From the NCBI RefSeq assembly GCF_001544615.1, contig NZ_FCNV02000001.1, forward strand, positions 1,054,001 through 1,118,000: a DNA stretch of 64,000 bases, written 5' to 3'. Position 1 is the first letter of the stretch; the number at the start of each line of letters is the position of its first letter. The DNA comes from Caballeronia concitans (GTDB taxonomy: Bacteria; Pseudomonadota; Gammaproteobacteria; Burkholderiales; Burkholderiaceae). A program made the position numbers and the translations under genes. Under the pieces are notes generated by a model that saw only the letters and a program-made list of their open reading frames with translations, ran no database searches and had not been told where the DNA came from. This document shows positions 33,964 to 47,348 of this stretch, piece by piece.

Positions 33964-34854
33964 CTAGCTGAGCGCTTCGATCGTCGCGATCGCTTTTTCC
34001 GCAGCGGGCGACAGCGTTCGTTGCGCGAGATAGGCGATGGAATATTGCACGTTGAGATCGCGCATATCTTCGATGTGCAAGCGGACCAGCGCGCCCGTTT
34101 CCAGTTCGTACTTCAGCGCGCGGTCTGGCGCGATGAGCACGACGTCCTCGTGGATGGCAAGCTGAGTCAGCGCGCGAAAGTCGTTGCTTTCGACGCGCGA
34201 GGTCACGTCTTCGCCGGGGCGGCATCGAAGAAGCGTGCGCCACTGTTCGTGTGCCGCGACCGGTAGCGGCACCGAAGCGAGTCTTGCTTCGCGAACCTGC
34301 GCGAGGTCCACCGTATTCCCGCACAGCGGATGAAGCGGCCGCACGAAGAAGCCGACCGGTTCAGGCTTCAGCGGGCGCAGTGCCAGTTCAACGGTCAACG
34401 GCATCAAACGATTAGCAGTCAGAACGAAATCCAGCTGCTCCGATTGCAATGCCGCAAACAGCACTTCGCTGCAATTCACATCGGCGGCGACGCGCAGGTT
34501 CGGCCAGTCGCGCTGCATGACGCGAAGCACGTCCGACAGCAGAATGGCCGCTGGAAACGGGCCCATTCCGAACCGCACGCTGCCCATTTCATGTTGACGA
34601 AGAAGCTGCAGGTCGCGCTCCAGACAACTTGCCTCGAACAGGATGCGTCTTGCCCGCTCCAGCACCATCTGGCCGGTCGATGTCAGCGTCACTCCGCGCG
34701 CGCCGCGATCGAAGAGCGCCATGCCCACTTCCTCTTCGAGCGCCTGAATACTGCGGGTTAATGCGGGTTGCGTGAGATTGACGTTTCGTGCGGCGGCGGC
34801 AAGCGTTCCTTGCTCAACGACCGCCACTAAATGTTCCAGCCGCTTAAGGTTCAC
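33964..34854 (-). CDS. LysR-type transcriptional regulator divergent from alkyl sulfatase
   Basis: This protein of about 296 aa has an N-terminal LysR helix-turn-helix (NLKRLEHLVAVVEQGTLAAAARNVNLTQPALTRSIQALEEEVG) and a substrate-binding domain. The GTG at 34854 is chosen because AAAAGG lies 6 bp before it and LysR proteins usually begin right at this motif; an ATG at 34872 adds six residues. It faces away from the alkyl sulfatase gene across about 210 bp, so it probably controls that gene; the effector is unknown. Confidence 0.88.
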   Translation of the reverse strand: MNLKRLEHLVAVVEQGTLAAAARNVNLTQPALTRSIQALEEEVGMALFDRGARGVTLTSTGQMVLERARRILFEASCLERDLQLLRQHEMGSVRFGMGPFPAAILLSDVLRVMQRDWPNLRVAADVNCSEVLFAALQSEQLDFVLTANRLMPLTVELALRPLKPEPVGFFVRPLHPLCGNTVDLAQVREARLASVPLPVAAHEQWRTLLRCRPGEDVTSRVESNDFRALTQLAIHEDVVLIAPDRALKYELETGALVRLHIEDMRDLNVQYSIAYLAQRTLSPAAEKAIATIEALS

Positions 34855-35065
34855 GATTAACCTTTTCTGCATATTTCGGATGAAAAACCTGCAATTGCAT
34901 TATATGAGCCTTGGTTGTGAAATGTGGGTGGCCCACCCGCTTGGGTCTCGCAACATGCTGGTCGTTTGCTGCCTTGTTTTGACGTAGCCATGCGATGTAT
35001 CCGGCATGCAGTCGCGTCGTCATCGCTCGCAACGAGTCATTCAATCAAGAGCCGGAACCTCAACG

Positions 35066-36979
35066 ATGTCGCATCCACAAGATCTGTCAGCCGAGAAAGC
35101 CACCCTTGCGACCGTGGCGGCGCACAAGCAGGCCCTTCAGGATTTACCCTTAGAAGATCATCTCGACGAGGAGGAGGCAAGGCGAGGGTTTATCGGCACC
35201 GTGCCCGATGCAGAAGTTCGCGATGCATACGGTGCGCTAGTCTGGAGCGTGGCTGACTATCAGTTCCTCAGCGATCCCGTCGCGCCCGCGACCGCGCATC
35301 CCGCGCTTTGGCGTCAGGCGCGGCTCAATCTCATTCACGGCTTGTTCAAGGTCACCGATCGCATCTATCAGGTTCGCGGCTTCGACTTGTCGAACATGAC
35401 GATCATCGAAGGCGACTCGGGCCTCATCATCATCGATCCGCTGACGTGTCGCGAGACGGCGAAGGCGGCGCTCGATCTGTATCTGAGTCATCGTCCGGGA
35501 AAACCCGTGGTCGCCGTCATCTATAGCCACAGTCACGCCGATCACTTCGGCGGTGTGAAGGGCGTGACGGACGAAGCCAGCGTGCGCAGCGGCAAGGTCG
35601 CCGTGATCGCGCCCGAAGGGTTCATGGAAGCGGCCATCTCGGAGAACGTGATGGCCGGCACGGTCATGTGGCGGCGCGCGCAGTTTCAGGGCGGATCGAC
35701 CTTGCCGCGCAACGCCTGCTGTCAGATCGATGCGGGCCTCGGCAAGACCGGTCCGAGAGGCACCGTGACGCTGATCGAGCCTACGTGGCTTATCCGCGAG
35801 GAGACCGAAACGCATGTGATCGACGGCATCGAGATCGTGTTTCAGTTGACGCCGGAAAGCGAAGCGCCCGCCGAGATGCACTTCTTTTTCCCGCAACTGC
35901 GCGCATTGAACCTGGCCGAAAACGGCACGCGCACGTTGCACAATCTCTGCCCGCTGCGCGGCGCGCAAGTGCGTGACGCTCGACTGTGGTCGCGCTATCT
36001 GAACGATTCGCTGGAACGTTACGCGCCGCATGCCGATGTCGTGTTTGCCCAGCATCATTGGCCTACCTGGGGCAGGGCGCGCATCACGGCTTTCATCGAG
36101 CAGCAACGCGATCTCTACAAGTTCCTGCACGACCAGACCGTGCGGATGATGAATCACGGCCTCACGGGCGTCGAGATTGCGGAGCGCATGCGGCTGCCCG
36201 ATAGTCTCCACGCCCAATGGCACGCGAGGGGCTATTACGGCACGGTCTCGCACAATGTCAAGGCCATTTACCAGTATTACCTCAGCTGGTACGACGGCAA
36301 TCCGAGCAACCTGCATGCGTTGCCGCCGGAGATGTCGGGGCCGCGTTATGTCGAATACATGGGTGGTGCGCAGGCGATGATCGAGCGGGCGCGCGAGGAC
36401 TACGAGCGCGGTGAGTATCGCTGGGTCGCGCAGGTGATGAATCACCTGATCTTCGCCGAGCCGCAGAACAAGGATGCGCGCGAACTGGGCGCGGCGGCGC
36501 TCGAACAGATGGGTTTCCAGGCCGAGTCGGCCACGTGGCGTAATGCTTTTCTGCTCGGCGCCCGCGAACTGCGGGAAGGCCGCGGACGTGCCGCCACGGT
36601 CAATTCCCGCAGCGCCGACATGGTCCGCGCAATCAGCGATTCCCTTTTCTTCGACTATCTCGCGATCCGCATCGATGGTTTGAAGGCGCAGCACATGCAT
36701 AGCCGCATCGCGTGGAATTTCACCGATACGGGCAAGCGTTACGCGCTGACGCTTCAGCACGGCGCGTTGACCTGCTCCGAAGCGCCGCATGTCACGCCCT
36801 CGCATGTCACGGTGTCGATGTCCCGCGAACATCTCAACGAGATTCTGCTGGCGAAGACCACGTTTGCAGATGCCATCGCTCAAGGGCAAATCATGCTCGA
36901 AGGCGACAGCGAGCGCTTCACCTCTTTGCTGGGCATGCTCGACCGCTTCAACGGAGATTTCAACGTCGTCGAGCCGTGA
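35066..36979 (+). CDS. Class III alkyl sulfatase (SdsA1/BDS1-like metallo-beta-lactamase fold)
   Basis: This 637-aa protein has the zinc motif HSHADH (about residue 156) in a metallo-beta-lactamase domain, the second metal region LNLAENGTRTLHNLCPLRGAQVRD, a central dimerisation domain and a C-terminal SCP2-like domain (HSRIAWNFTDTGKRYALTLQHG). The family hydrolyses primary alkyl sulfates such as dodecyl sulfate to the alcohol and sulfate. No signal peptide is seen, so unlike Pseudomonas SdsA1 it is predicted to be cytosolic. Downstream genes can oxidise the alcohol to an acyl-CoA. Confidence 0.93.
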   Translation: MSHPQDLSAEKATLATVAAHKQALQDLPLEDHLDEEEARRGFIGTVPDAEVRDAYGALVWSVADYQFLSDPVAPATAHPALWRQARLNLIHGLFKVTDRIYQVRGFDLSNMTIIEGDSGLIIIDPLTCRETAKAALDLYLSHRPGKPVVAVIYSHSHADHFGGVKGVTDEASVRSGKVAVIAPEGFMEAAISENVMAGTVMWRRAQFQGGSTLPRNACCQIDAGLGKTGPRGTVTLIEPTWLIREETETHVIDGIEIVFQLTPESEAPAEMHFFFPQLRALNLAENGTRTLHNLCPLRGAQVRDARLWSRYLNDSLERYAPHADVVFAQHHWPTWGRARITAFIEQQRDLYKFLHDQTVRMMNHGLTGVEIAERMRLPDSLHAQWHARGYYGTVSHNVKAIYQYYLSWYDGNPSNLHALPPEMSGPRYVEYMGGAQAMIERAREDYERGEYRWVAQVMNHLIFAEPQNKDARELGAAALEQMGFQAESATWRNAFLLGARELREGRGRAATVNSRSADMVRAISDSLFFDYLAIRIDGLKAQHMHSRIAWNFTDTGKRYALTLQHGALTCSEAPHVTPSHVTVSMSREHLNEILLAKTTFADAIAQGQIMLEGDSERFTSLLGMLDRFNGDFNVVEP

Positions 36980-37049
36980 TCGTTGAGTGCGCCGGCACGC
37001 CGCGTGAAGTGGCGTGTCTTCGGCCGCAGCGGTATATCGATCCGGTCGG

Positions 37050-37078
37050 TTGGCATGATGCTTCGTAGTCCGTATATA
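37050..37078 (+). promoter_or_regulatory. Sigma-70 promoter of the fusion regulator
   Basis: TTGGCA (37050-37055) and TATATA (37073-37078) are separated by exactly 17 bp. Transcription would begin near 37085, almost at the ATGs at 37083 and 37089, which implies a leaderless or near-leaderless message. Confidence 0.6.
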
Positions 37079-37082
37079 TGGA

Positions 37083-40000
37083 ATGGTTATGCGCGTTGCT
37101 CCTCCCGTCGTTCTTACGTCCGTCGAGCGCGACGAACTCGTTGCGTTGATTGCTCCAGTCGACGGCAATTCCAAACTGGCCCAGCGTGCGCGCATCGTGC
37201 TGATGGCGGCGGACGGCGTGCAAAACAAGCGGATCGCGAGCGAACTGGGGATCGGTCGCGTGCAGGTGGCGCGATGGCGCGAGCGGTATGTGCGTTCGCG
37301 GCTCTCGGGCATCAAGGAAGAATTGCCGCGCGGTGCGCCGCCCGTCAGAGTGGACGTCGCGCGGCTCGTCGCACTGACCACCGACGCGCCCGGCACGGGC
37401 GGCAAGACATGGAGCACGCGTAAGCTCGCGGCGGAACTCGGCGTCAGTGCCGCGAGCGTGTCGCGGCACTGGCGCGCGACGGGCATTGCATCGCATGGGG
37501 GAAGCGCGCAGCGCAGCGATGGATTGCTCGACTTGTACGGGCAACGCGCGGCAATCGTCGGGCTCTATGTCGCGCCGCCCGAGCACGCACTCGTATTCGC
37601 GCTGGAATCCGTGGACGAATCGCCCATGCGAGCGCGCGAGGCAGTGCGACCCATCCACGCGTGGCAGCGCCATCTGGCGACATCGCTCATCACGTCGCTC
37701 AAAGGATTGATGAGCAACGCTTCCGGCATCAACATCGAAGTGCAGCGGCACGTGTCGTGGCTCGGCTTCTTAGGCGAACTCGAACGGAGCGTGCCGCCGG
37801 GAAAGGTCCTGCTCGTCGTCGCGGACAACCATCTTTCCCATCATCATCCGGCGGTTCAGCAGTGGCTTCGCGGCCACGAGCGCATCCAGGTCCGGCTCGC
37901 GCCCAACGCGGGCGCGTGGCTGCGCCTGCTGCAAGGCTATTTGCGCGATGCGCAGTCCGGGCTATGCGCAGGCGGCTTGCCCGAGCACGTTGCCGATGTG
38001 CTGTCGTTCATCGAGCGGCAACGCGGGTCGCAGGGTCATCACGTGTTTCATTGGTGCATGGGCGCGGATGCAGCGGGGGAGTCGCGCGCGATCGAGTGTG
38101 AAGATGACGCCCCGGCCGACGCCGAAGCGCCGCCGCTCGACACGGCGCACGAAGCCGCGCCCGCCGCCGATGGGCCATCCAGTGACGACATGCCGCTCGA
38201 TCGCACCGTCCGCCCCGTTGCCAGCACCAAGCTGCTGCCGCCGCGCAGCACGCGTCGCCTGATGTCGCGGGACAGCTTCATGACGCGCCTGCTCGACGCG
38301 CGACGTCATCGTTGCATCGTCATTCAGGGGCAGGCAGGCAGCGGCAAGACCAGCACGATGATCGTATGGCGCAAGGCGCTGATCTCGCTGGGCTTCGACG
38401 TGAGCTGGCTGTCGCTTTCCAGCGAGGACAACGAGCCGGCCAGATTCTTCGACTGCCTGCTCGCGAGCATCGCCGAAGTCGATCCCGTCGTCGTGCGCGA
38501 TGCGGCGCTTCTCGTGGCGCAAGCGGGCGGCGATACGGCGATCGAGCATTGGGTCATCACGCTCGTGCAGGCGCTCGCCAAGCGCCAGCGTCACATCATG
38601 CTGATGATCGACGATCTGCATCACGTCTCCGATCCGCGCATCTTCGAAGCCCTGCAATGGCTGCTCGACTATGCGCCGGCACAGTTGCATCTCGCGCTGT
38701 GTTCGCGCAGCGCGCTGCCGCTTTCCATGGAGCGGCTGCGTTCGCAACACGTGCTGAGCGAGTTCGACATGCGGGACCTGCGCTTCACCGAAGCGGAATC
38801 CGAACGCTATCTGCGCGAGCAACTCGGCAGCATCGACTCGCGCGACGCGGCGGCGCTCCATGCACTCACGGAAGGCTGGGTGGCCGGCCTGCAGCTCTTC
38901 GCGGTCGATCTGCGCACGCGCCAGGGAAGCGACTATCCGGTGGTGAAGGTGCACGATCCGCGCACGTTCGCGAGCTATTTCGAATGCGAAGTGCTCACGC
39001 GGCTCGCAACGGACGATCTCGACATGCTGACGCGCGTGGCCGTGTGTCATCGCTTCAATGCGCCGCTTTGCGCGAGCGTGATCGGGCAGGGCGCGGATAT
39101 GTCGCGCATCAGGGCGCGGCTCGTGCAGCTCGAAGCCGACAATCTTTTCATTACCGAAGTGGGCAGTCACGATCGCGAGACGTGGTATCGCATTCATCCG
39201 TTGCTGCGCGAAACGCTTCTCACGCGGCTGGCGGAACACGATGCCGAAGCGTTGCGCGACTCGCACGCGGTGGCGTGGCGCTGGTTCGAATCGCATGGTC
39301 AGATCGACAGTGCGGTGTTCCATGCCGTGAAGGCCGGCGATCCCGCTGCCGCCGCCGCCATGGTCGAGCGATGCGCGCAGGCGCTCTTGGCGCAGGGCGA
39401 ACTGAACCAGTTGTCCGGCCTGCTGCGGATGCTGCCGCTCGAGTTCGTGCAGAAAGGCTTCGCGCTGCATATCGCGATGGCTTACCTCCATCTCTACTCG
39501 CGCAACTTCAAGGCGCTTGGGCGAAGCCTCGAACAGCTGGAAGCATCCGCCGATGCGCTCGACCAGCGGCAGCGCTACACGCTGTGCCTGCTGCGAGCCG
39601 GTCTCGCGCTCCAGCAGGACGACACCGATGCCCTCGTCGCCATGCTGCCGGAACTGCGCGCCATCCCCGAAGACGCTGACGATTTCGCCTGGAACGGCCG
39701 CAGCAACGTGCTTTCATGGCTGCACATGTCGCGCGGCGAATACGACGAAGCGCGCGCCGTGCTCGACGACATGGGCCGGCACGCGGGCGCGCCGCGCAGC
39801 AGTCTGCTCGGGCGTTGCATGGGCGCACTCAGTTTGTCGATGGAAGGGCGCATCAAGGAGGCGGAAAAGATCATTCGCGGCGTGCTGCACGAGTCGGAGC
39901 GGCAGGGGCCGCCGTATGTGGGCGTGTCGTGCATGGCGGCAAGCCTTCTCGCCGATACGCTCTACGAGCTCAACGACTTCGAGGCGGCGTGCCAGCTGCT

Positions 40001-40925
40001 GGAATCGCGCATCGGCATGCTCGAACGGGTGTCGTTGCCGGAGATCGTATTGCGTGCGTTCACGGTGCTGTCGAACGCGCACTGGGCGGCGGGGCGGCGC
40101 GCGCAAGCCTGTTCGTGGCTGGATCGGCTCGAAGCCTATGCCGGCCGCTACGGACTCGATCGCGTGCTCGCGGAAACCCTCGTTCTGCGCTTGCGCCGGC
40201 ATCTGGAACAAGTGGAAACCGAACGGGCCAATACCGTGCTCGAACGCCTCGCCGTGCTCGAAATGCGTTACGCCGACTCGGGACCGGACATGGCGGCGCG
40301 CATCCGCTTCGCCGCTGCTCGCGCGTGCGTCGAAATGTGCCTGCACACCGGCGACTATGCGGGTCTCGCGAGCCGTCTCGAAGCGCTGATCGCGACGGCG
40401 GAGGCGAGCGGGCGACGGCTTCTTTCCACGACGCTGAGACTGCAGCTTGCCGTCGCGCAACACGGAACCGGCAACGAACAGGCTGCGGCCAAGGCGTTCG
40501 GCCAGGCCATCCGGCAGGGGCATGCGCTCGGCCTCATGCGCACGCTGCTCGACGCGGCGGCGGGCGCACCGGGCAGCTTTGCCGCGCTGGCCAGCCAGTC
40601 CATCGCCGATCCCGTCCTCGCGTTCTACGCGGAACGCCTGCTGTCGGCGGCGGAAGCGCGCGCGGCGATCGCGTCGGTTGCCCGCCCGTCCACAGCCGCG
40701 TTGCCCGTCGATGCCCTGAGCGAACGCGAACGCGAAATTCTCGCGTTGCTCGCGCAGGCCATGTCGAACAAGAAGATCGCGACGGTGCTCAACGTGTCGG
40801 CGGAAACGGTGAAATGGCATCTGAAGAACATTTATCTGAAGCTCGGCGTGGGCGGACGAGGCGGCGCGGCCGCGCGCTTCCGCGATCTCAGCGCGCGCGA
40901 CGCCGGTACGCACGAGTCCGCGTGA
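37083..40925 (+). CDS. Fusion of an inactivated IS630-type transposase with a MalT-like LuxR regulator
   Basis: This 1280-aa protein has two unlike halves. Residues about 30-325 align with an IS630-family transposase: an N-terminal helix-turn-helix (RARIVLMAADGVQNKRIASELG), a second one (TWSTRKLAAELGVSAASVSRHW), then a DDE-fold region with IVGLYVAPPEHALVF, VVADNHLSHHHPAV and LAPNAGAWLRLLQ. Of the three catalytic acids only D248 remains; the first is E175 and the third Q284, so it should not transpose. Residues 380-1280 are a large LuxR (LAL) regulator: TKLLPPR, Walker A GQAGSGKTS (416-424), Walker B IMLMIDDLHH, TPR-like repeats, and a C-terminal LuxR helix-turn-helix (1212-1270, LSEREREILALLAQ). 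It precedes the acyl-CoA synthetase operon, a likely target. Start Met1 or Met3. Confidence 0.9.
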   Translation: MVMRVAPPVVLTSVERDELVALIAPVDGNSKLAQRARIVLMAADGVQNKRIASELGIGRVQVARWRERYVRSRLSGIKEELPRGAPPVRVDVARLVALTTDAPGTGGKTWSTRKLAAELGVSAASVSRHWRATGIASHGGSAQRSDGLLDLYGQRAAIVGLYVAPPEHALVFALESVDESPMRAREAVRPIHAWQRHLATSLITSLKGLMSNASGINIEVQRHVSWLGFLGELERSVPPGKVLLVVADNHLSHHHPAVQQWLRGHERIQVRLAPNAGAWLRLLQGYLRDAQSGLCAGGLPEHVADVLSFIERQRGSQGHHVFHWCMGADAAGESRAIECEDDAPADAEAPPLDTAHEAAPAADGPSSDDMPLDRTVRPVASTKLLPPRSTRRLMSRDSFMTRLLDARRHRCIVIQGQAGSGKTSTMIVWRKALISLGFDVSWLSLSSEDNEPARFFDCLLASIAEVDPVVVRDAALLVAQAGGDTAIEHWVITLVQALAKRQRHIMLMIDDLHHVSDPRIFEALQWLLDYAPAQLHLALCSRSALPLSMERLRSQHVLSEFDMRDLRFTEAESERYLREQLGSIDSRDAAALHALTEGWVAGLQLFAVDLRTRQGSDYPVVKVHDPRTFASYFECEVLTRLATDDLDMLTRVAVCHRFNAPLCASVIGQGADMSRIRARLVQLEADNLFITEVGSHDRETWYRIHPLLRETLLTRLAEHDAEALRDSHAVAWRWFESHGQIDSAVFHAVKAGDPAAAAAMVERCAQALLAQGELNQLSGLLRMLPLEFVQKGFALHIAMAYLHLYSRNFKALGRSLEQLEASADALDQRQRYTLCLLRAGLALQQDDTDALVAMLPELRAIPEDADDFAWNGRSNVLSWLHMSRGEYDEARAVLDDMGRHAGAPRSSLLGRCMGALSLSMEGRIKEAEKIIRGVLHESERQGPPYVGVSCMAASLLADTLYELNDFEAACQLLESRIGMLERVSLPEIVLRAFTVLSNAHWAAGRRAQACSWLDRLEAYAGRYGLDRVLAETLVLRLRRHLEQVETERANTVLERLAVLEMRYADSGPDMAARIRFAAARACVEMCLHTGDYAGLASRLEALIATAEASGRRLLSTTLRLQLAVAQHGTGNEQAAAKAFGQAIRQGHALGLMRTLLDAAAGAPGSFAALASQSIADPVLAFYAERLLSAAEARAAIASVARPSTAALPVDALSEREREILALLAQAMSNKKIATVLNVSAETVKWHLKNIYLKLGVGGRGGAAARFRDLSARDAGTHESA

Positions 40926-41064
40926 GACACGCCGCATGACGGGGCGAAACATATGGATAAGTCCCGTCGCTGCGCCCCCCGCGCCGGGGAGTGGAGTGTC
41001 AAAGGCGCGCAGTGATGATTCGATGAACGGGACGCCGTCCCGCCCAACCTTGCGACCCACCTCC

Positions 41065-42774
41065 ATGGCGCGACTGACCCGACACTATGCTCATTGGCCT
41101 CCGGGGGTGCCTCACACCCTGGAAGCGCCCGAATGCAATCTCTTCGACTTTCTGGCAGCCAGCGCCGCGCGGTGCCCAGAGAAGACCGCCATCGACTATT
41201 ACGGCGCGCAGATGAGCTACCGCACGCTACTCGACGCCGTGCTCAAACTCGCGGGCTACATGCAGCAGCGCCTGTCCGTGCGTCGCGGCGAGCGTGTGGT
41301 GCTGCTCATGCAGAACTGTCCGCAATTCGCCATCGCGTACTACGCGGTGTTGCGTTGCGGCGCGGTCGTGGTTCCCGCGAATCCCATGTGCACGCCCGCC
41401 GAGGTCGCCTATTACGTGGCGGACTCCGGCGCTCGCGTGGCGGTCACCACGCAGGACATGCTGCCGCGTCTCACGCCGCTGCTCGATAACGGCGCGCTCG
41501 CCGGATGTCTCGTCGGCGCGTGCTCGGAGTTCGCCGGCCAACCGCGCGACGTGCCGTTCATGGAGATTCCCGCGTTCGTGCGCGAGCCGCGTCAACGCTT
41601 CACGCATCCGGGCGTGCACGAATTCGCCGGCGCGCTGGCCGCGGGCATCGCGCCGACGCCGCTCGTCGATACGGCGGGGCTGGCGGTCATCGGCTATACG
41701 TCCGGCACGACCGGCGAACCGAAGGGCGCGATGCTCAGCCATCGCGCGTTCTCGTATGTGGTCAGCCAGCGCGTGCTGTGGTTCTCCGACAATCCCGATA
41801 GCAGCGACCTGATCACCCTGCCCGTGAATCACGTGGCGGGCATGTGCGCGCTCAATCAGGCGCTGGTTCAGGCGCGGACCATGGTGATGCTCGCGCGCTG
41901 GGACGCGGCGGCCGTGCCGCGTTTGATCGAGCACCATCGCATCGGTTGCTGGGCGGCGGTCACGCCGATGCTCGTCGAACTGCTCGGACGCCCGGAACTG
42001 GCCCAGCACGACGTGTCGTCGCTCAGGCGGCTCTACGGCGGCGCCACCGCGATGCCCGAAGCCGTGGCGCGTCAGGTCGAGCAACGCCTGGGCGTGCCGT
42101 ACATCGAGTGCTACGGCATGACCGAAACCTGCGGCAGCACGCACATGAATCCGCCGCAAGCGCCGCGTCTGCAGTGCGCGGGCATCCCGCAAGTCAACGT
42201 CGATGCCCGTGTGATCGATCCCGACAGCGGCGTCGAGCTCGGCGTCGATCAACCCGGCGAACTGGTAATGCACTGTCCCACGCAATTCGACGGCTACTGG
42301 GGACGGCCCGAGGCGAGCGCGGGCGCGTTCATCGAGATCGAGGGAAAGCGCTTCGTGCGCAGCGGCGACATCGGTCATTACGACGAAGACGGCTACTTCT
42401 ACATCACCGACCGGCTCAAGCGGATGATCAACGCGTCCGGGCTGAAGGTATGGCCGGCGGAAATCGAATCGCGGTTGCACGGGCATCCGGCAGTACAGGA
42501 GGCGTGCGTGATCGCGGCCCACGACGCGCGCCGGGGCGAGACGGTCAAGGCGCTCGTGGTGCTGCGCGAGGATGCGCGCGGCACGCTCACGCCCGACGCG
42601 CTGATCGAATGGGCGCGCGGCTGCATGGCTGCGTACAAGGTGCCGCGCGAGATCGAGTTCGTGCAGAGCCTGCCGCGCTCGGCCGCCGGCAAGCTGCTGT
42701 GGCGCATGGTGCAGGACCAGCAGAATCAGATCGATAGCAAAACGAATCAGGTAGCACAGACAGAGGACCGGTGA
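41065..42774 (+). CDS. Fatty-acid/carboxylate CoA ligase (AMP-binding)
   Basis: This 569-aa acyl-adenylate enzyme has the P-loop YTSGTTGEPKG, the YGMTET motif, the hinge SGDIGHYDEDGYFYITDR and the C-terminal lysine in PRSAAGKLLWR. It activates a carboxylic acid with ATP and CoA. The substrate is not defined by sequence, but the operon (aldehyde dehydrogenase, alcohol oxidoreductase) suggests fatty acids from alkyl chains. Starts at 40936 and 41023 are possible; 41065 (MARLTRHYAHWPPG) fits the family. Confidence 0.9.
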   Translation: MARLTRHYAHWPPGVPHTLEAPECNLFDFLAASAARCPEKTAIDYYGAQMSYRTLLDAVLKLAGYMQQRLSVRRGERVVLLMQNCPQFAIAYYAVLRCGAVVVPANPMCTPAEVAYYVADSGARVAVTTQDMLPRLTPLLDNGALAGCLVGACSEFAGQPRDVPFMEIPAFVREPRQRFTHPGVHEFAGALAAGIAPTPLVDTAGLAVIGYTSGTTGEPKGAMLSHRAFSYVVSQRVLWFSDNPDSSDLITLPVNHVAGMCALNQALVQARTMVMLARWDAAAVPRLIEHHRIGCWAAVTPMLVELLGRPELAQHDVSSLRRLYGGATAMPEAVARQVEQRLGVPYIECYGMTETCGSTHMNPPQAPRLQCAGIPQVNVDARVIDPDSGVELGVDQPGELVMHCPTQFDGYWGRPEASAGAFIEIEGKRFVRSGDIGHYDEDGYFYITDRLKRMINASGLKVWPAEIESRLHGHPAVQEACVIAAHDARRGETVKALVVLREDARGTLTPDALIEWARGCMAAYKVPREIEFVQSLPRSAAGKLLWRMVQDQQNQIDSKTNQVAQTEDR

Positions 42775-42816: not shown

Positions 42817-44247
42817 GTGAAGCAATTGAACACGTTCTACATCGACGGCTCGTGGGTCGAGCCCTCGGTGCCCGCGACATTCGTCGATATCGTCGATCCC
42901 TCCACGGAGACCGTCATCGGCAAGCTCGCGATGGGCGGTCCGCACGACGTCGATCGTGCGGTGGCCGCCGCGCGCAAGGCGTTTCCCGAATGGTCGCGCA
43001 CGAGCCGGCAGACGCGGCTCGCATTGCTCGAGCGCGTCGTGCAATGCTACAAGGCGCGCATGGCGGACCTTGCCGCCGCCGTGACCGACGAAATGGGCGC
43101 GCCGTCGTGGCTGAGCCGCGACCTGCATGTGCCGGCCGGACTCGGACAGATCGCGACGACCATCGACGCGTTGAGGGACTTTCCCTTCGAGACGCAACGG
43201 GGCGCGACGCGTATCGTGCGCGAGCCTGTCGGCGTTGCCGCGCTGATCACGCCGTGGAACTGGCCGCTCAATCAGATCGCGGCGAAAGTAGCGCCCGCGC
43301 TGGCGGCGGGTTGCACGGTGGTGTTGAAGCCATCCGAAGCCGCGCCGCTCGACGCGCATCTGTTCGCCGAGATTCTTCACGAGGCGGGCGTGCCGCGCGG
43401 CGTCTTCAACATGATTTATGGCGATGGCGAACGCGTCGGCGCAGCACTGTCCGCACATCCAGGCGTCGATATGGTGTCGATCACCGGCTCCACGCGCGCG
43501 GGCGTCGCGGTCGCGATGAGCGCGGCGCCGACCGTCAAGCGCGTCGCGCAGGAGCTGGGCGGCAAGTCTCCGTATCTCATCCTCGACGACGCGGACCTCG
43601 CGTCGGCCGTCGCGACCGGCGTGACCAGCTGCATGATGAACTCGGGGCAAACCTGCATCGCGCCGACGCGCATGCTCGTGCCGCGGCAACACTATGCGGC
43701 GGCGGTGGAGATCGCGGCTGCCACGGCGTCCGCGCTGACCGTCGGCCATCCGCGCGATGCCGCGAGCAAGCTCGGGCCGCTCGCCAATCGCGCGCAGTTC
43801 GACCGCGTGCAGCAGATGATCGCGACGGGCGTACGCGAAGGGGCGCGGATCGTCGCGGGCGGTCCGGGCCGTCCCGATGGCCTCACGCATGGCTACTACG
43901 CCCGGCCGACCGTCTTCGCGGACGTCGGCTACGACATGACCATCGCGCGCGAAGAAATCTTCGGTCCGGTTCTCGTGATGCTTCCCTACGACGACGAATT
44001 GCACGGTATCTCCGTTGCCAACGATACCGACTACGGCCTCGCAGCCTACGTCTGGTCCGCCGACGCCGCGCGCGCGCAACGCGTGGCGGGCGAACTGCGG
44101 GCCGGCGCGGTGATGATCAACGGCGCGCGCATGGACCTGAGTGCGCCGTTCGGCGGGTACAAGCGCTCGGGCAACGGGCGCGAGTTCGGCGAATACGGCA
44201 TCGCGGAATTTCTCGAGTTCAAGTCGGTGGTCGCTGGCGCGCGCTGA
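42817..44247 (+). CDS. Aldehyde dehydrogenase (NAD(P)+)
   Basis: This 476-aa ALDH-superfamily enzyme has the cofactor motif ITGSTRAG, the general-base glutamate in QELGGKSP and the nucleophile cysteine in NSGQTCIAPTR. It would oxidise an aldehyde to the acid used by the CoA ligase upstream. The start is a GTG at 42817 with AGGAGA 6 bp before it. It sits 42 bp after the ligase and 49 bp before the alcohol oxidoreductase. Confidence 0.94.
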   Translation: MKQLNTFYIDGSWVEPSVPATFVDIVDPSTETVIGKLAMGGPHDVDRAVAAARKAFPEWSRTSRQTRLALLERVVQCYKARMADLAAAVTDEMGAPSWLSRDLHVPAGLGQIATTIDALRDFPFETQRGATRIVREPVGVAALITPWNWPLNQIAAKVAPALAAGCTVVLKPSEAAPLDAHLFAEILHEAGVPRGVFNMIYGDGERVGAALSAHPGVDMVSITGSTRAGVAVAMSAAPTVKRVAQELGGKSPYLILDDADLASAVATGVTSCMMNSGQTCIAPTRMLVPRQHYAAAVEIAAATASALTVGHPRDAASKLGPLANRAQFDRVQQMIATGVREGARIVAGGPGRPDGLTHGYYARPTVFADVGYDMTIAREEIFGPVLVMLPYDDELHGISVANDTDYGLAAYVWSADAARAQRVAGELRAGAVMINGARMDLSAPFGGYKRSGNGREFGEYGIAEFLEFKSVVAGAR

Positions 44248-44296: not shown

Positions 44297-45979
44297 ATGA
44301 GTCATGACGGGAAGAACAATCACAACGCGTCGAACGTGACGGAGTTCGACTATATCGTCGTCGGAGCGGGGTCGGCGGGGTGCGCCGTGGCAAGCCGGCT
44401 CGCCGAAGATGACGGCGTGACGGTGGCATTGCTCGAGGCGGGACCGAACGATCACCATTACACGGTATGGACGCCCATCGGCATCGCGAAGACGGCGGGG
44501 CGCCAGGGGCTGCGCAACTACGGCTACTACTCGGAGCCGCAGAGCGGCATGGACGGCCGATGCTCGTGGCAGCCGCGCGGACGGGGCCTCGGCGGGTCGT
44601 CGTCGATCAACGCGATGGTGTATATCCGCGGTCATCGTCACGATTACGACCACTGGGCCAAGCTCGGCTGCGACGGCTGGAGTTACGCGGATGTGTTGCC
44701 GTACTTCCGGCGCAGCGAGTGCAACGAGCGTTATGAAGGCCGCGACGACAATCCGTGGCACGGCGGTTCCGGGCCGCTCTACGTGAGCGATCTGCGCAGC
44801 CCGAATCCCTATTCGCGACGTTTCCTGCAAGCCGCGCAGCAGGCGGGCGTCCGGCCGAACAACGACTTCAACGGCGAGCGGCAGGAAGGCGTCGGGCTCT
44901 TTCAGGTCACGCAGCACAACGGCGAACGCTGGAATGCCGCGCGCGCCTATCTGCATCGGGGCAACGCGCACGACTTGAACCTGAACGGAGGCCGCAAGGG
45001 ATTGTCGGTGCTGACCGATACGCAAGTGCTGCGCATCGACTTCGAAGGTCGTCGCGCGGTCGGCGTGACCGTCGTGCGCGCGGGCGTGGAGCATACGCTG
45101 CGCGCCCGGCGCGAAGTGATCGTCAGCGGCGGAACCTACAATTCTCCGCAATTGCTCATGGCCTCGGGCGTCGGACCGGCCGAGCACTTGCGCAGCCTCG
45201 GCATCGACATCGTGCACGATCTGCCGGGCGTGGGCGAGAACCTGCACGATCATCCGGACATCGTCATCAATAAACAGGTCGATTCGATCGACCTGTTCGG
45301 CTATTCGGCGCGCGGTTTCGTGCGCATGTTCAGCGAGGTGATGCGTTACCGGCGTCATCGGACGGGCATGGTGGCGTCGAACATCGCGGAGGCGGGCGCG
45401 TTCGTGCGCAGCCGCCCCGAGCTTGCCGCGCCGGATCTGCAACTGCACTTCGCGGCGGCGATGGTCGGCGACCGCGGCAAGGGCAGCAAGCCGAAGCACG
45501 GTTATTCGTGTCACGCGTGCGTCTTGCGGCCGCATAGCCGGGGCCATGTCAGACTGAAGTCGGCCGACATGCGCGAAGCGCCGCTGATCGACCCGCGTCT
45601 GCTCTCCGACGAGCGCGATCTCGAAGGTCTCGTCACCGGCGTCAAGCTGATTCGCCGCATCTTCGCGCAACCCGCGCTCGCGAGCGAAGGCGGGCGCGAG
45701 CTTGCGACGGAAGCCTTCGGCGACGACAACGCCAACGACGAGGCCATTCGCGAGTTCGTCCGGGCGAAGGCGGACACGGTGTTTCACCCGGTCGGCACCT
45801 GCCGCATGGGCACCGACGACATGGCGGTGGTCGATCCGCAACTTCGCGTGCGCGGCGTCGAGGGGCTGCGTGTCGTGGATGCGTCGATCATGCCCACGGT
45901 GCCGGCCGGCAACACGAACGCTCCAGCCATCATGGTGGGCGAAAAAGCTGCTTCCATGATCCGAAGCGCCAACAGATGA
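44297..45979 (+). CDS. GMC-family alcohol oxidoreductase (FAD)
   Basis: This 560-aa flavoprotein has the FAD Rossmann motif VVGAGSAGCAVASRLAE near residue 20, the GMC signature GRGLGGSSSINAMVYIRG, and the catalytic pair in HPVGTCRMG and NTNAPAIMVGEKA. GMC dehydrogenases (choline dehydrogenase, AlkJ) oxidise primary alcohols and pass electrons to the quinone pool. Here it could convert the long-chain alcohol released by the sulfatase into the aldehyde. Confidence 0.93.
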   Translation: MSHDGKNNHNASNVTEFDYIVVGAGSAGCAVASRLAEDDGVTVALLEAGPNDHHYTVWTPIGIAKTAGRQGLRNYGYYSEPQSGMDGRCSWQPRGRGLGGSSSINAMVYIRGHRHDYDHWAKLGCDGWSYADVLPYFRRSECNERYEGRDDNPWHGGSGPLYVSDLRSPNPYSRRFLQAAQQAGVRPNNDFNGERQEGVGLFQVTQHNGERWNAARAYLHRGNAHDLNLNGGRKGLSVLTDTQVLRIDFEGRRAVGVTVVRAGVEHTLRARREVIVSGGTYNSPQLLMASGVGPAEHLRSLGIDIVHDLPGVGENLHDHPDIVINKQVDSIDLFGYSARGFVRMFSEVMRYRRHRTGMVASNIAEAGAFVRSRPELAAPDLQLHFAAAMVGDRGKGSKPKHGYSCHACVLRPHSRGHVRLKSADMREAPLIDPRLLSDERDLEGLVTGVKLIRRIFAQPALASEGGRELATEAFGDDNANDEAIREFVRAKADTVFHPVGTCRMGTDDMAVVDPQLRVRGVEGLRVVDASIMPTVPAGNTNAPAIMVGEKAASMIRSANR

Positions 45980-46034: not shown

Positions 46035-47348
46035 ATGAGCACCACATACGAGCCCTTCAAAGCATGGCGCGTCGCATTGCTGATGCTGGCGTTTCTGATG
46101 GTCAACTTCTTCGACAAGGTGGTCATCGGCTTATTGGCCGTGCCCATCATGGACGAACTCCACATGACGCCGATGCAGTTCGGCATCGTCAGCAGCAGCT
46201 TCTTCTGGCTGTTCGCGGCGGGCGGCATCGGCGGCGGCTTTCTTGCGAACCGCTTCTCCGCGCGCACGCTCGCCTTGCTGATGGCGCTTGCCTGGTCGCT
46301 GTGCCAGTTGCCGCTGGTCGTTTCGACGTCGATGGCGGTGTTCATCGTGGCGCGCGTCGCGCTCGGATTGACGGAGGGGCCCGCTTATCCCGTCGCCGTG
46401 CATGCCGTCTACAAATGGTTTCCGCCCAGCAAGCGGATTCTGCCCGTGTCGCTCTTCGTGGCGGGCGGCAGCCTCGGCCTGCTGGGCGCAGGCGTGCTGG
46501 TGCCGCTCGTGACCCGGCATTGGGGCTGGCGGACGAACTTCATCATGATGTGCATCATCGGCGTGATCTGGTCGATTATCTGGATGGCGTTCGGCAAGGA
46601 AGGCCGCCTCGATGAAGCCGCCACTTCGACCGGCTCGCAGGCGACCGTGCCGTATCGCCGCCTGCTTTCGGATCGAACCGTGCTCGGCAGCATGCTGCTG
46701 CAGTTCGCGTCGTACTGGGGCGTCGCGCTCGGCTTCACGTGGTTGCCCGTGTACTTCCAAAAGGGCTTGTCTTACGACGCCGTCGCCTCGGGACGCTACT
46801 ACGCTCTCGTGATGGCGGCGGCCGTGCCGGTATCGCTCGGCCTGTCATTCTTCGCGCAGCGCATGATCGCGCGCGGCGTGCGGTCGCGCATCTCGCGTGG
46901 CTGGTTCACCGCCGCGTGTCTCTTCACGTCGGGTGTCGGTTTCATGAGCGTGCTCGACGGTCACATGCCGCTGGGCCTGCGTCTCGGCATTCTGATCGTG
47001 ACCTTCGGCTGCACGCCGATTGCCTATGGACTGTGCCCGGCGATGCTCGCCGAAGTAACGCCCGCGCCGCAACGAGCCGCGATTCTGGCGATCGGCAATT
47101 CGGTGGCGTCGCTGGCCGGCGTCATCGCGCCCGTGGTGATGGGCCGGCTCGTGCAGAACATAGCCGGCGCGTCCGGCTATGAAGCGGGATTCGCGGTATG
47201 CGGCGCGCTGGGCGTGGCGGGGAGCGTCATCGGCGCCATGCTCATTCATCCGGAGCGCACCATGAAGCGTCTGCGGGTGGGGCCGTTCCACGCCGAGCTT
47301 TCGACGGGCGAGTCTCCCGCGACTGCGACGGCTGCAAGGGCAAGCTGA
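46035..47348 (+). CDS. MFS transporter (ACS-type organic anion symporter)
   Basis: This 437-aa protein has 12 predicted membrane helices and features of the anion:cation symporter family: FDKVVIGLLAVPIMDELHMTP, then GGFLANRFSARTLA and RVALGLTEGPAYPVAVHAVYKWFP. Such carriers import carboxylates and other organic anions with protons. It is the last gene of the plus-strand operon (41065-47348), so it may import an alkyl sulfate or a degradation product. Substrate is inferred from context only. Confidence 0.9.
   Translation: MSTTYEPFKAWRVALLMLAFLMVNFFDKVVIGLLAVPIMDELHMTPMQFGIVSSSFFWLFAAGGIGGGFLANRFSARTLALLMALAWSLCQLPLVVSTSMAVFIVARVALGLTEGPAYPVAVHAVYKWFPPSKRILPVSLFVAGGSLGLLGAGVLVPLVTRHWGWRTNFIMMCIIGVIWSIIWMAFGKEGRLDEAATSTGSQATVPYRRLLSDRTVLGSMLLQFASYWGVALGFTWLPVYFQKGLSYDAVASGRYYALVMAAAVPVSLGLSFFAQRMIARGVRSRISRGWFTAACLFTSGVGFMSVLDGHMPLGLRLGILIVTFGCTPIAYGLCPAMLAEVTPAPQRAAILAIGNSVASLAGVIAPVVMGRLVQNIAGASGYEAGFAVCGALGVAGSVIGAMLIHPERTMKRLRVGPFHAELSTGESPATATAARAS

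Follow-up and report, generated by a model that had tools for sequence, protein, structure and literature searches.

The reading frame at positions 37083-40925 (+) of the 64,000-nucleotide stretch of Caballeronia concitans DNA analysed here (contig NZ_FCNV02000001.1, positions 1,054,001 to 1,118,000; hereafter the window) encodes a fusion of an IS630-type transposase (residues ~3-330) with a complete MalT-like regulator (residues ~378-1268) of the STAND (signal transduction ATPases with numerous domains)/LuxR type, also known as LAL (large ATP-binding regulators of the LuxR family). Sequence comparisons provide strong evidence for transposase capture, and overall we consider it likely that the captured pair of helix-turn-helices (HTHs) serves the LAL regulator as a second DNA-binding module. 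The gene is composed as follows:

37083..40925 (+): fusion gene, IS630 transposase-derived N-terminus plus LAL (MalT/LuxR) regulator, 1280 residues, a single open frame
37089..37172 (+): N-terminal extension, starting at Met3 (alignment to fusions and free IS630)
37173..37316 (+): HTH1, residues 31-78 (Pfam, alignment)
37317..37490 (+): linker and HTH2, residues 79-136 (Pfam, alignment)
37530..38066 (+): decayed DDE/RNase H-like core, residues ~150-328 (alignment, structure model)
38070..38207 (+): unconserved linker (dN/dS 1.1 against Paraburkholderia sacchari, residues 346-375)
38223..39242 (+): STAND NTPase region (MalT model, match to the solved MalT structure 8bob)
38328-38354 (+): Walker A motif GQAGSGKTS, within the STAND NTPase region
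39243..40682 (+): MalT-like TPR region (TPR_MalT, E 1.1e-15)
40713..40868 (+): C-terminal LuxR/GerE HTH (E 9.6e-21)

The 1280 codons form one frame without an internal stop, as the first-pass annotation of this DNA had reported, and its assignment of the first part to the IS630 family was borne out. The NCBIfam IS630 transposase model matched residues 34-280 (E 2.1e-24), although at 86.5 bits the match falls short of the curated cut-off of 100. Over ~310 residues the protein is ~41-44% identical to full-length free-standing IS630 transposases, both from Cupriavidus and from other families of the order; judged by these alignments, the likeness is far beyond chance. The two HTHs proposed near the N-terminus pass the Pfam cut-offs as HTH_23 and HTH_29, as do TPR_MalT and GerE (residues 1211-1262), while DDE_3 is marginal (E 0.057, with the N-terminal part searched alone) and the sequence matches in PDB to SETMAR (E 0.005) and Pax (E 0.02) are both weak. 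For a likeness to DDE transposase folds, on which the annotation had staked its reading, the structural signal is weak: the Mos1 transpososome ranked first in the Foldseek search with the whole N-terminal model, but at low scores, and HTH proteins of no relation score as high as the top matches; with the core, integrases and other RNase H-like folds were prominent, also with weak structural scores. The core is predicted to be ordered (predicted local distance difference test 85, predicted template modelling score 0.84).

The remainder of the protein is a complete LAL regulator, as had been claimed. The NCBIfam MalT model covers residues 381-1269 (E 3.9e-74; 250 bits), and because the equivalog cut-off of 537 bits is not reached we call the protein MalT-like rather than MalT; the best sequence match in PDB is the MalT structure 8bob (residues 383-802, E 3.8e-27). 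The Walker A motif GQAGSGKT, TPR_MalT and the C-terminal GerE HTH are shared with the MalT/LAL regulators, including MalT and AlkS. Those regulators carry one DNA-binding domain, at the C-terminus, whereas the window protein has an additional, transposase-derived one at the N-terminus. In the window protein, a Met 16 residues ahead of the PPR motif could act as an internal start yielding the LAL part alone, but Met positions in this region vary among the 17 fusions.

Comparison with other fusions and with free transposases reveals that the catalytic function has been lost and that the pattern of constraint is inverted. At the positions singled out by the annotation as E175, D248 and Q284, all 19 free relatives aligned exhibit the D, D, E triad (these 19 are a subset of 37 extracted, the others being partial or near-duplicate). 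The catalytic Glu is retained in none of the 15 core-bearing fusions (Gln in 14, His in one) and, counting two members in which the core is deleted and the HTH pair is tied to STAND by a short linker (L049, L050), it is lost in 17 of 17 aligned fusions. The second Asp is kept in 14 of the 15, whereas the position of the first, where the alignment is uncertain, is occupied by D in 4, E in 6, S in 2, G in 2 and A in 1. The mean pairwise identity among the 15 core-bearing fusions is 72% for HTH1, 65% for HTH2 and 37% for the core, as against 46%, 51% and 64%, respectively, among the 19 free transposases, and within the N-terminal part of the fusions conservation is highest at residues of the HTHs.

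Ratios of nonsynonymous to synonymous substitution rates (dN/dS) follow the same order. Between the window gene and its P. sacchari relative, the ratio is lowest for the LuxR HTH (0.021), followed by the N-terminal HTHs (0.127), TPR (0.131), STAND (0.137) and the core (0.254), and it is highest for the linker (1.1). Seven pairs were run, of which L042/L043 (dS at most 0.023) and L049/L050 (almost no core) were uninformative. In the six pairs for which dS could be measured, the HTH value ranges from 0.05 to 0.36, comparable to that of STAND, and the core value (0.25-0.64 in 5 pairs) exceeds that of the HTHs by 1.4 to 4 fold in all 5 informative pairs. These estimates indicate that purifying selection acts with similar strength on the HTH pair and on STAND, and that the core has decayed yet is still under weak purifying selection.

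Uninterrupted fusion genes number 18, in 13 Burkholderiaceae genomes (11 of Cupriavidus, P. sacchari and the window's own). A search of 398 genomes of the family matched the N-terminal part at E <= 1e-40 in 29 of them and yielded 17 genes with open frames of at least 1186 residues in 13 genomes; the eighteenth (G380:C8, the record of L078) came from a search of 60 Cupriavidus genomes, 11 of which contain at least one uninterrupted fusion. One more of these, G389, has a frameshifted fusion (L051/L107), which was left out of the intact count. The fusion is mostly a Cupriavidus gene, and the species among the matching records are C. necator, C. pinatubonensis, C. lacunae, C. numazuensis and C. 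yeoncheonensis; species-titled loci are largely identical with loci already counted and were not counted twice. Among the best 5-6 candidates per genome, no long fusion frame beyond the window's own genome was found in overlapping samples of 300 genomes of the order, 321 of the class and 349 of the phylum. In PLSDB, at least 80% of the protein is covered in 2 of 190 matching records, namely the Cupriavidus sp. KK10 replicon and C. necator N-1, the latter probably being the already counted fusion of G336, and a search of viral contigs returned one distant match. The annotation had named a frameshift joining two genes as the alternative; such an artefact is ruled out because the same fusion is open in many genomes, with 17 fusions aligning over their length and one of them (L076) lying in a chromosome titled complete.

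The nearest relative of the window protein is the P. sacchari fusion (G177; 82% identical), the only one among 97 Paraburkholderia genomes. Its locus has the same neighbours as the window, at 84-88% identity; with the gene otherwise seen in Cupriavidus, its presence in these two genomes suggests horizontal transfer.

The trees of either half place the fused proteins in one group. In the tree of the IS630 parts (41 rows), 15 fusions form one clade with support 100/100 against 26 free transposases; 11 of the 37 free transposases (partial or near-duplicate) and the two core-less fusions were omitted. In the tree of the LAL parts (69 rows), 17 fusions form one clade with a Shimodaira-Hasegawa-like approximate likelihood ratio (SH-aLRT) of 97, obtained by a quick method without bootstrap; this tree includes 52 unfused LALs from 76 loci, while the 15 fusion loci among the 76 are represented by those 17, and L109, L111, L140, L142 and L143-L147 were left out. 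The sisters of the fused LALs are unfused proteins of Variovorax and Hydrogenophaga, i.e. related LALs that lack the transposase extension. Both trees show the same main subgroups, for instance clade A (L037, L038, L040, L046, L047) versus the rest. On this phylogenetic evidence the fusion arose once, and both halves have been inherited together since. With its single origin, inverted constraint, purifying selection on the HTHs and loss of the Glu in all 17 members aligned, the family supports the proposed domestication of a transposase in a STAND-type LuxR regulator. The trees together with dN/dS reveal a fusion that is in frame and has been maintained by selection, as is characteristic of transposase capture.

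Among complete free transposases, the nearest relatives belong to IS630 elements that occur in multiple copies and have an intact DDE triad. Free Cupriavidus transposases (361-386 residues) begin with VRVAP (VRVAPE...), and the fusions begin where the free protein begins, with MRVAP (MRVAPP...) or similar. One free transposase, L015, shares with the window protein 71% identity in HTH1, 62% in HTH2 and 32% in the core, has D, D and E intact, and belongs to a type present in at least 34 copies in G326 (the best 34 of 184 candidates scored). Parent-like elements also occur in G261 and G380; the G326 copies include L148-L151, and some copies lie head to tail (L149, L012). The window's genome contains two more distant IS630-like transposase genes with D, D and E present, L002 (G000:C20; 33% identity) and L003 (G000:C5; 30% identity). 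In G306, a 350-codon frame (L052:7464-8513, the same gene as in L023) has an N-terminus 58% identical to the HTH part of the fusion but an end unlike that of the transposase, and probably represents an IS630 copy in decay.

Where copies were compared, the ends of the insertion sequence (IS) are imperfect inverted repeats starting with CTAGTG, and the right repeat contains the stop codon of the transposase. The fusions extend past the final aromatic position that is conserved in the transposase (W324 of the window protein), and from there an unconserved linker leads into the LAL part. In L038 this linker contains a stretch similar to the IS right end (L038:9220-9270, -) at the expected place, orientation and reading frame, reading LSSIDDATQ as compared to LSSKQNGTLH-stop in the free transposase. 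Its core-profile score is the highest of all loci scanned (20.2; best of 46 unfused LAL loci: 14.5), and in local alignment it was equalled in 7 of 1000 shuffles, with 17 genes tried. If this stretch is real, the two frames were joined through loss of the transposase stop codon. The linker of L040 reached 4 of 1000 shuffles, but by a 12-base match elsewhere in the linker, and those of the other 15 fusions, the window included, were ordinary compared to shuffles when searched for a right-end relic. Scanning whole 18-kb loci with the IS-end profile left the window and the other 16 fusion loci below the best unfused LAL locus, with L038 alone above it, and with the full 30-base profile no fusion locus exceeded that level. 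Local alignment of the native left end to the 280 bases around the 17 fusion starts remained within shuffles save for L046 (score 24; maximum of 200 shuffles: 21) and L047 (23; maximum: 24). At the window gene, no IS end above shuffles was found in the 280 bases around the start, upstream (profile) or in the linker.

We propose that an IS630 element landed ahead of a MalT-type regulator gene within a fatty-substrate catabolic cluster, in the ancestor of the present Cupriavidus and Paraburkholderia genes. Loss of the stop codon would have joined the transposase frame to the regulator, with translation probably from the transposase's own start. Catalysis would have been lost early, by the Glu to Gln substitution seen in nearly every core-bearing member, and selection would have preserved the paired HTH, which once recognised the IS ends, as an additional DNA-binding module at the N-terminus, with the dispensable RNase H-like core left to decay. 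The STAND NTPase and TPR parts may bind ATP together with a signal from catabolism, for which a fatty alcohol, an aldehyde or an acyl derivative is the probable candidate, and may assemble as MalT does, whereupon the LuxR HTH would activate the catabolic promoter. The captured HTH pair might anchor the protein at separate sites, which in clade A would be descendants or mimics of the inner IS end within the promoter of the regulator itself, the outcome being either autoregulation or a fixed tether.

An alternative role for the captured part is protein-protein contact, i.e. dimerisation, or signal sensing rather than DNA binding. Tc1/mariner transposases dimerise, and both the predicted order of the core and the weak purifying selection that still acts on it would be accounted for; yet conservation of the N-terminal part peaks in the HTHs, the segments close to free IS630, and two members drop the core and retain both HTHs, so we regard this explanation as unlikely. 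The same retention despite core deletion, together with HTH dN/dS values like those of STAND and survival in at least 18 genes, leaves little room for a neutral fossil, in which the transposase stretch would be a tolerated, functionless N-terminal extension. That explanation fits the fast evolution of the core and linker and the lack of the extension in related LALs, and of those considered here it is the least probable.

Hardly more probable is that the fusion acts as a host silencer of its parent, the dead transposase occupying IS ends and repressing transposition, with the regulator part accidental. The HTHs are close to the parent's, and fusion and parent-like IS do coexist in some genomes (G380 has two fusions and five full-length copies), but 8 of the 11 Cupriavidus fusion genomes show no free copy of the parent-like subgroup (E ~1e-120 or better, among the candidates scored), the IS is most abundant in G326, where no fusion was seen, the LAL half is equally constrained, and the neighbourhood is catabolic. 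We favour the captured HTH pair as a DNA-binding module, and DNA binding by this domain is probable, as predicted from its conservation and from the clade-A promoter element described below.

In clade A, a conserved block of ~38 bases lies upstream of the start codon in unconserved surroundings and resembles IS-end positions 12-31 (around GTTCTTGATGGAAC). The 20-base site begins at -78 to -80 in four of the genes and at -106 in L037. In a first shuffle test the likeness was equalled in 120 of 400 cases for the full end, 0 of 400 for the core and 1 of 400 for the inner part; with a second background, the mean clade-A score for the core form was equalled in 4 of 10,000 column shuffles. Four of the five clade-A promoters score 9.7 or more (L047: 2.2), L044 and L045 have a site scoring 9.8 near -144, and the other 10 fusions score below 6; for comparison, 8 random 150-base segments out of 1020 reach a score of 9. 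At its outer tip the IS end has not been preserved, as expected if binding, not cutting, mattered. Several points weigh against a captured operator: the clade-A sites are homologous to one another, the likeness was spotted first and tested afterwards, the site has the opposite orientation to the native left end, the block may instead represent a promoter (by eye, TTGCA-N17-TTCTAC), and the window gene's own promoter has no IS-end-like element (best score -1.8). In the window's genome the motif has 4 matches with at most one mismatch versus 1 in the reversed control, too few to use, and no sigma-70-like site was found at 34700-37150.

The window gene lies between an alkyl sulfatase gene upstream and an acyl-CoA synthetase gene downstream, the placement given in the first-pass annotation, within the following run:

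33964..34872 (-): LysR-type regulator, divergent from the cluster (family search)
35006..36979 (+): alkyl sulfatase with metallo-beta-lactamase, dimerisation and C-terminal domains (family search)
40936..42774 (+): acyl-CoA synthetase (AMP-binding), first possible start 10 bases past the fusion's stop (family search)
42817..44247 (+): aldehyde dehydrogenase (family search)
44297..45979 (+): GMC alcohol oxidoreductase (family search)
46035..47348 (+): transporter-like frame (major facilitator superfamily by eye, sequence only)

By its gene content, the cluster looks like a module for degradation of alkyl sulfates and fatty alcohols, and the fusion regulator probably controls the breakdown of detergent-like fatty compounds. 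The annotation had proposed looking for the same fusion, beside the same genes, in other genomes; the family was found, but its neighbours are not constant. Of the 17 fusion loci, for which neighbour clusters were named mostly by eye, 15 have acyl-CoA dehydrogenase-like genes nearby, 13 Bug-type receptors, 13 thiolase-like genes, 12 acyl-CoA synthetase-like genes or a fragment, and only 4 an alkyl sulfatase, so that the constant theme is acyl-CoA catabolism. The SLF alkyl sulfate module of Psychrobacter pP62BP1 likewise brings together an aldehyde oxidoreductase, an alcohol dehydrogenase, an alkyl sulfatase and a fatty-acid-CoA synthetase, four activities common to both clusters. It is governed by the AraC/XylS-type repressor SlfR, whose repression is lifted by lauryl aldehyde, whereas in the window the fusion regulator is placed inside the gene run (PMC10779009). 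AlkS, a LuxR/MalT activator of alkane use (PMC8784404), is by analogy a precedent for the ability of the MalT family to respond to hydrophobic substrates. The literature on alkyl sulfatases and LAL regulators otherwise yielded precedents for function only.

Just 3' of the fusion in L073-L076, L079-L081, L083, L107 and L050 there is a frame of 202-342 codons (disturbed in L084), homologous (38-48%) to the N-terminal part only of the window's acyl-CoA synthetase downstream of the fusion. It stops before, or runs degenerate through, the AMP-binding P-loop, and its dN/dS is 0.18-0.62 in 7 pairs (L072 was left out of this test); to all appearance the fragment has been kept although it lacks a complete catalytic part, and it may act as a partner in sensing. 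Downstream of two unfused sister LALs of Variovorax (L089, L091), by ~1 kb, lies a full-length acyl-CoA synthetase match 66% identical to that of the window, and the neighbourhood of regulator and synthetase may thus predate the fusion. We suggest only tentatively, and with more doubt than belief, that IS630 brought both an end-binding domain and an end-like site, that this site turned into a control element of the regulator itself, as clade A would still show, and that the kept synthetase fragment may serve as the regulator's fatty-substrate sensor. If protein and operator were indeed captured together, a mobile element would have rewired a bacterial ligand-sensing regulator in one step.

With IS630/Tc1-mariner transposases the fusions share the paired HTH and the IS630-type RNase H-like core, and differ from them in the loss of the Glu and, in 11 of 15, of the first Asp; the window gene moreover is embedded in a 1280-residue regulator and no IS ends were found around it. 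Transposase capture in animals was reportedly described by Cosby et al. in 2021 (cited in PMC10027918). There too a transposase DNA-binding domain is joined to a host domain and retained, whereas the fusions are bacterial and the partner is a complete ligand-sensing regulator already having its own HTH. Another mobile-element protein turned regulator is an RNA-guided bacterial transcription factor, which we take to originate from TnpB; TnpB is not a DDE transposase, and the kind of fusion is different. F-box/Tc1-mariner HTH fusions are reported as a further capture in animals (PMC12062965). Word searches of the open-licence literature returned no account of a ligand-sensing regulator in bacteria to which a DDE transposase is fused.

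In animals, transcription factors are known to have arisen through transposase capture, and the fusions provide a bacterial case. The event goes back to one ancestor, the genus still harbours parent-like elements in multiple copies, and the cores range from full-length to none, which makes the turning of a transposase DNA-binding domain into part of a regulatory circuit directly testable and, perhaps, also the conversion of a mobile element's binding site into such a circuit.

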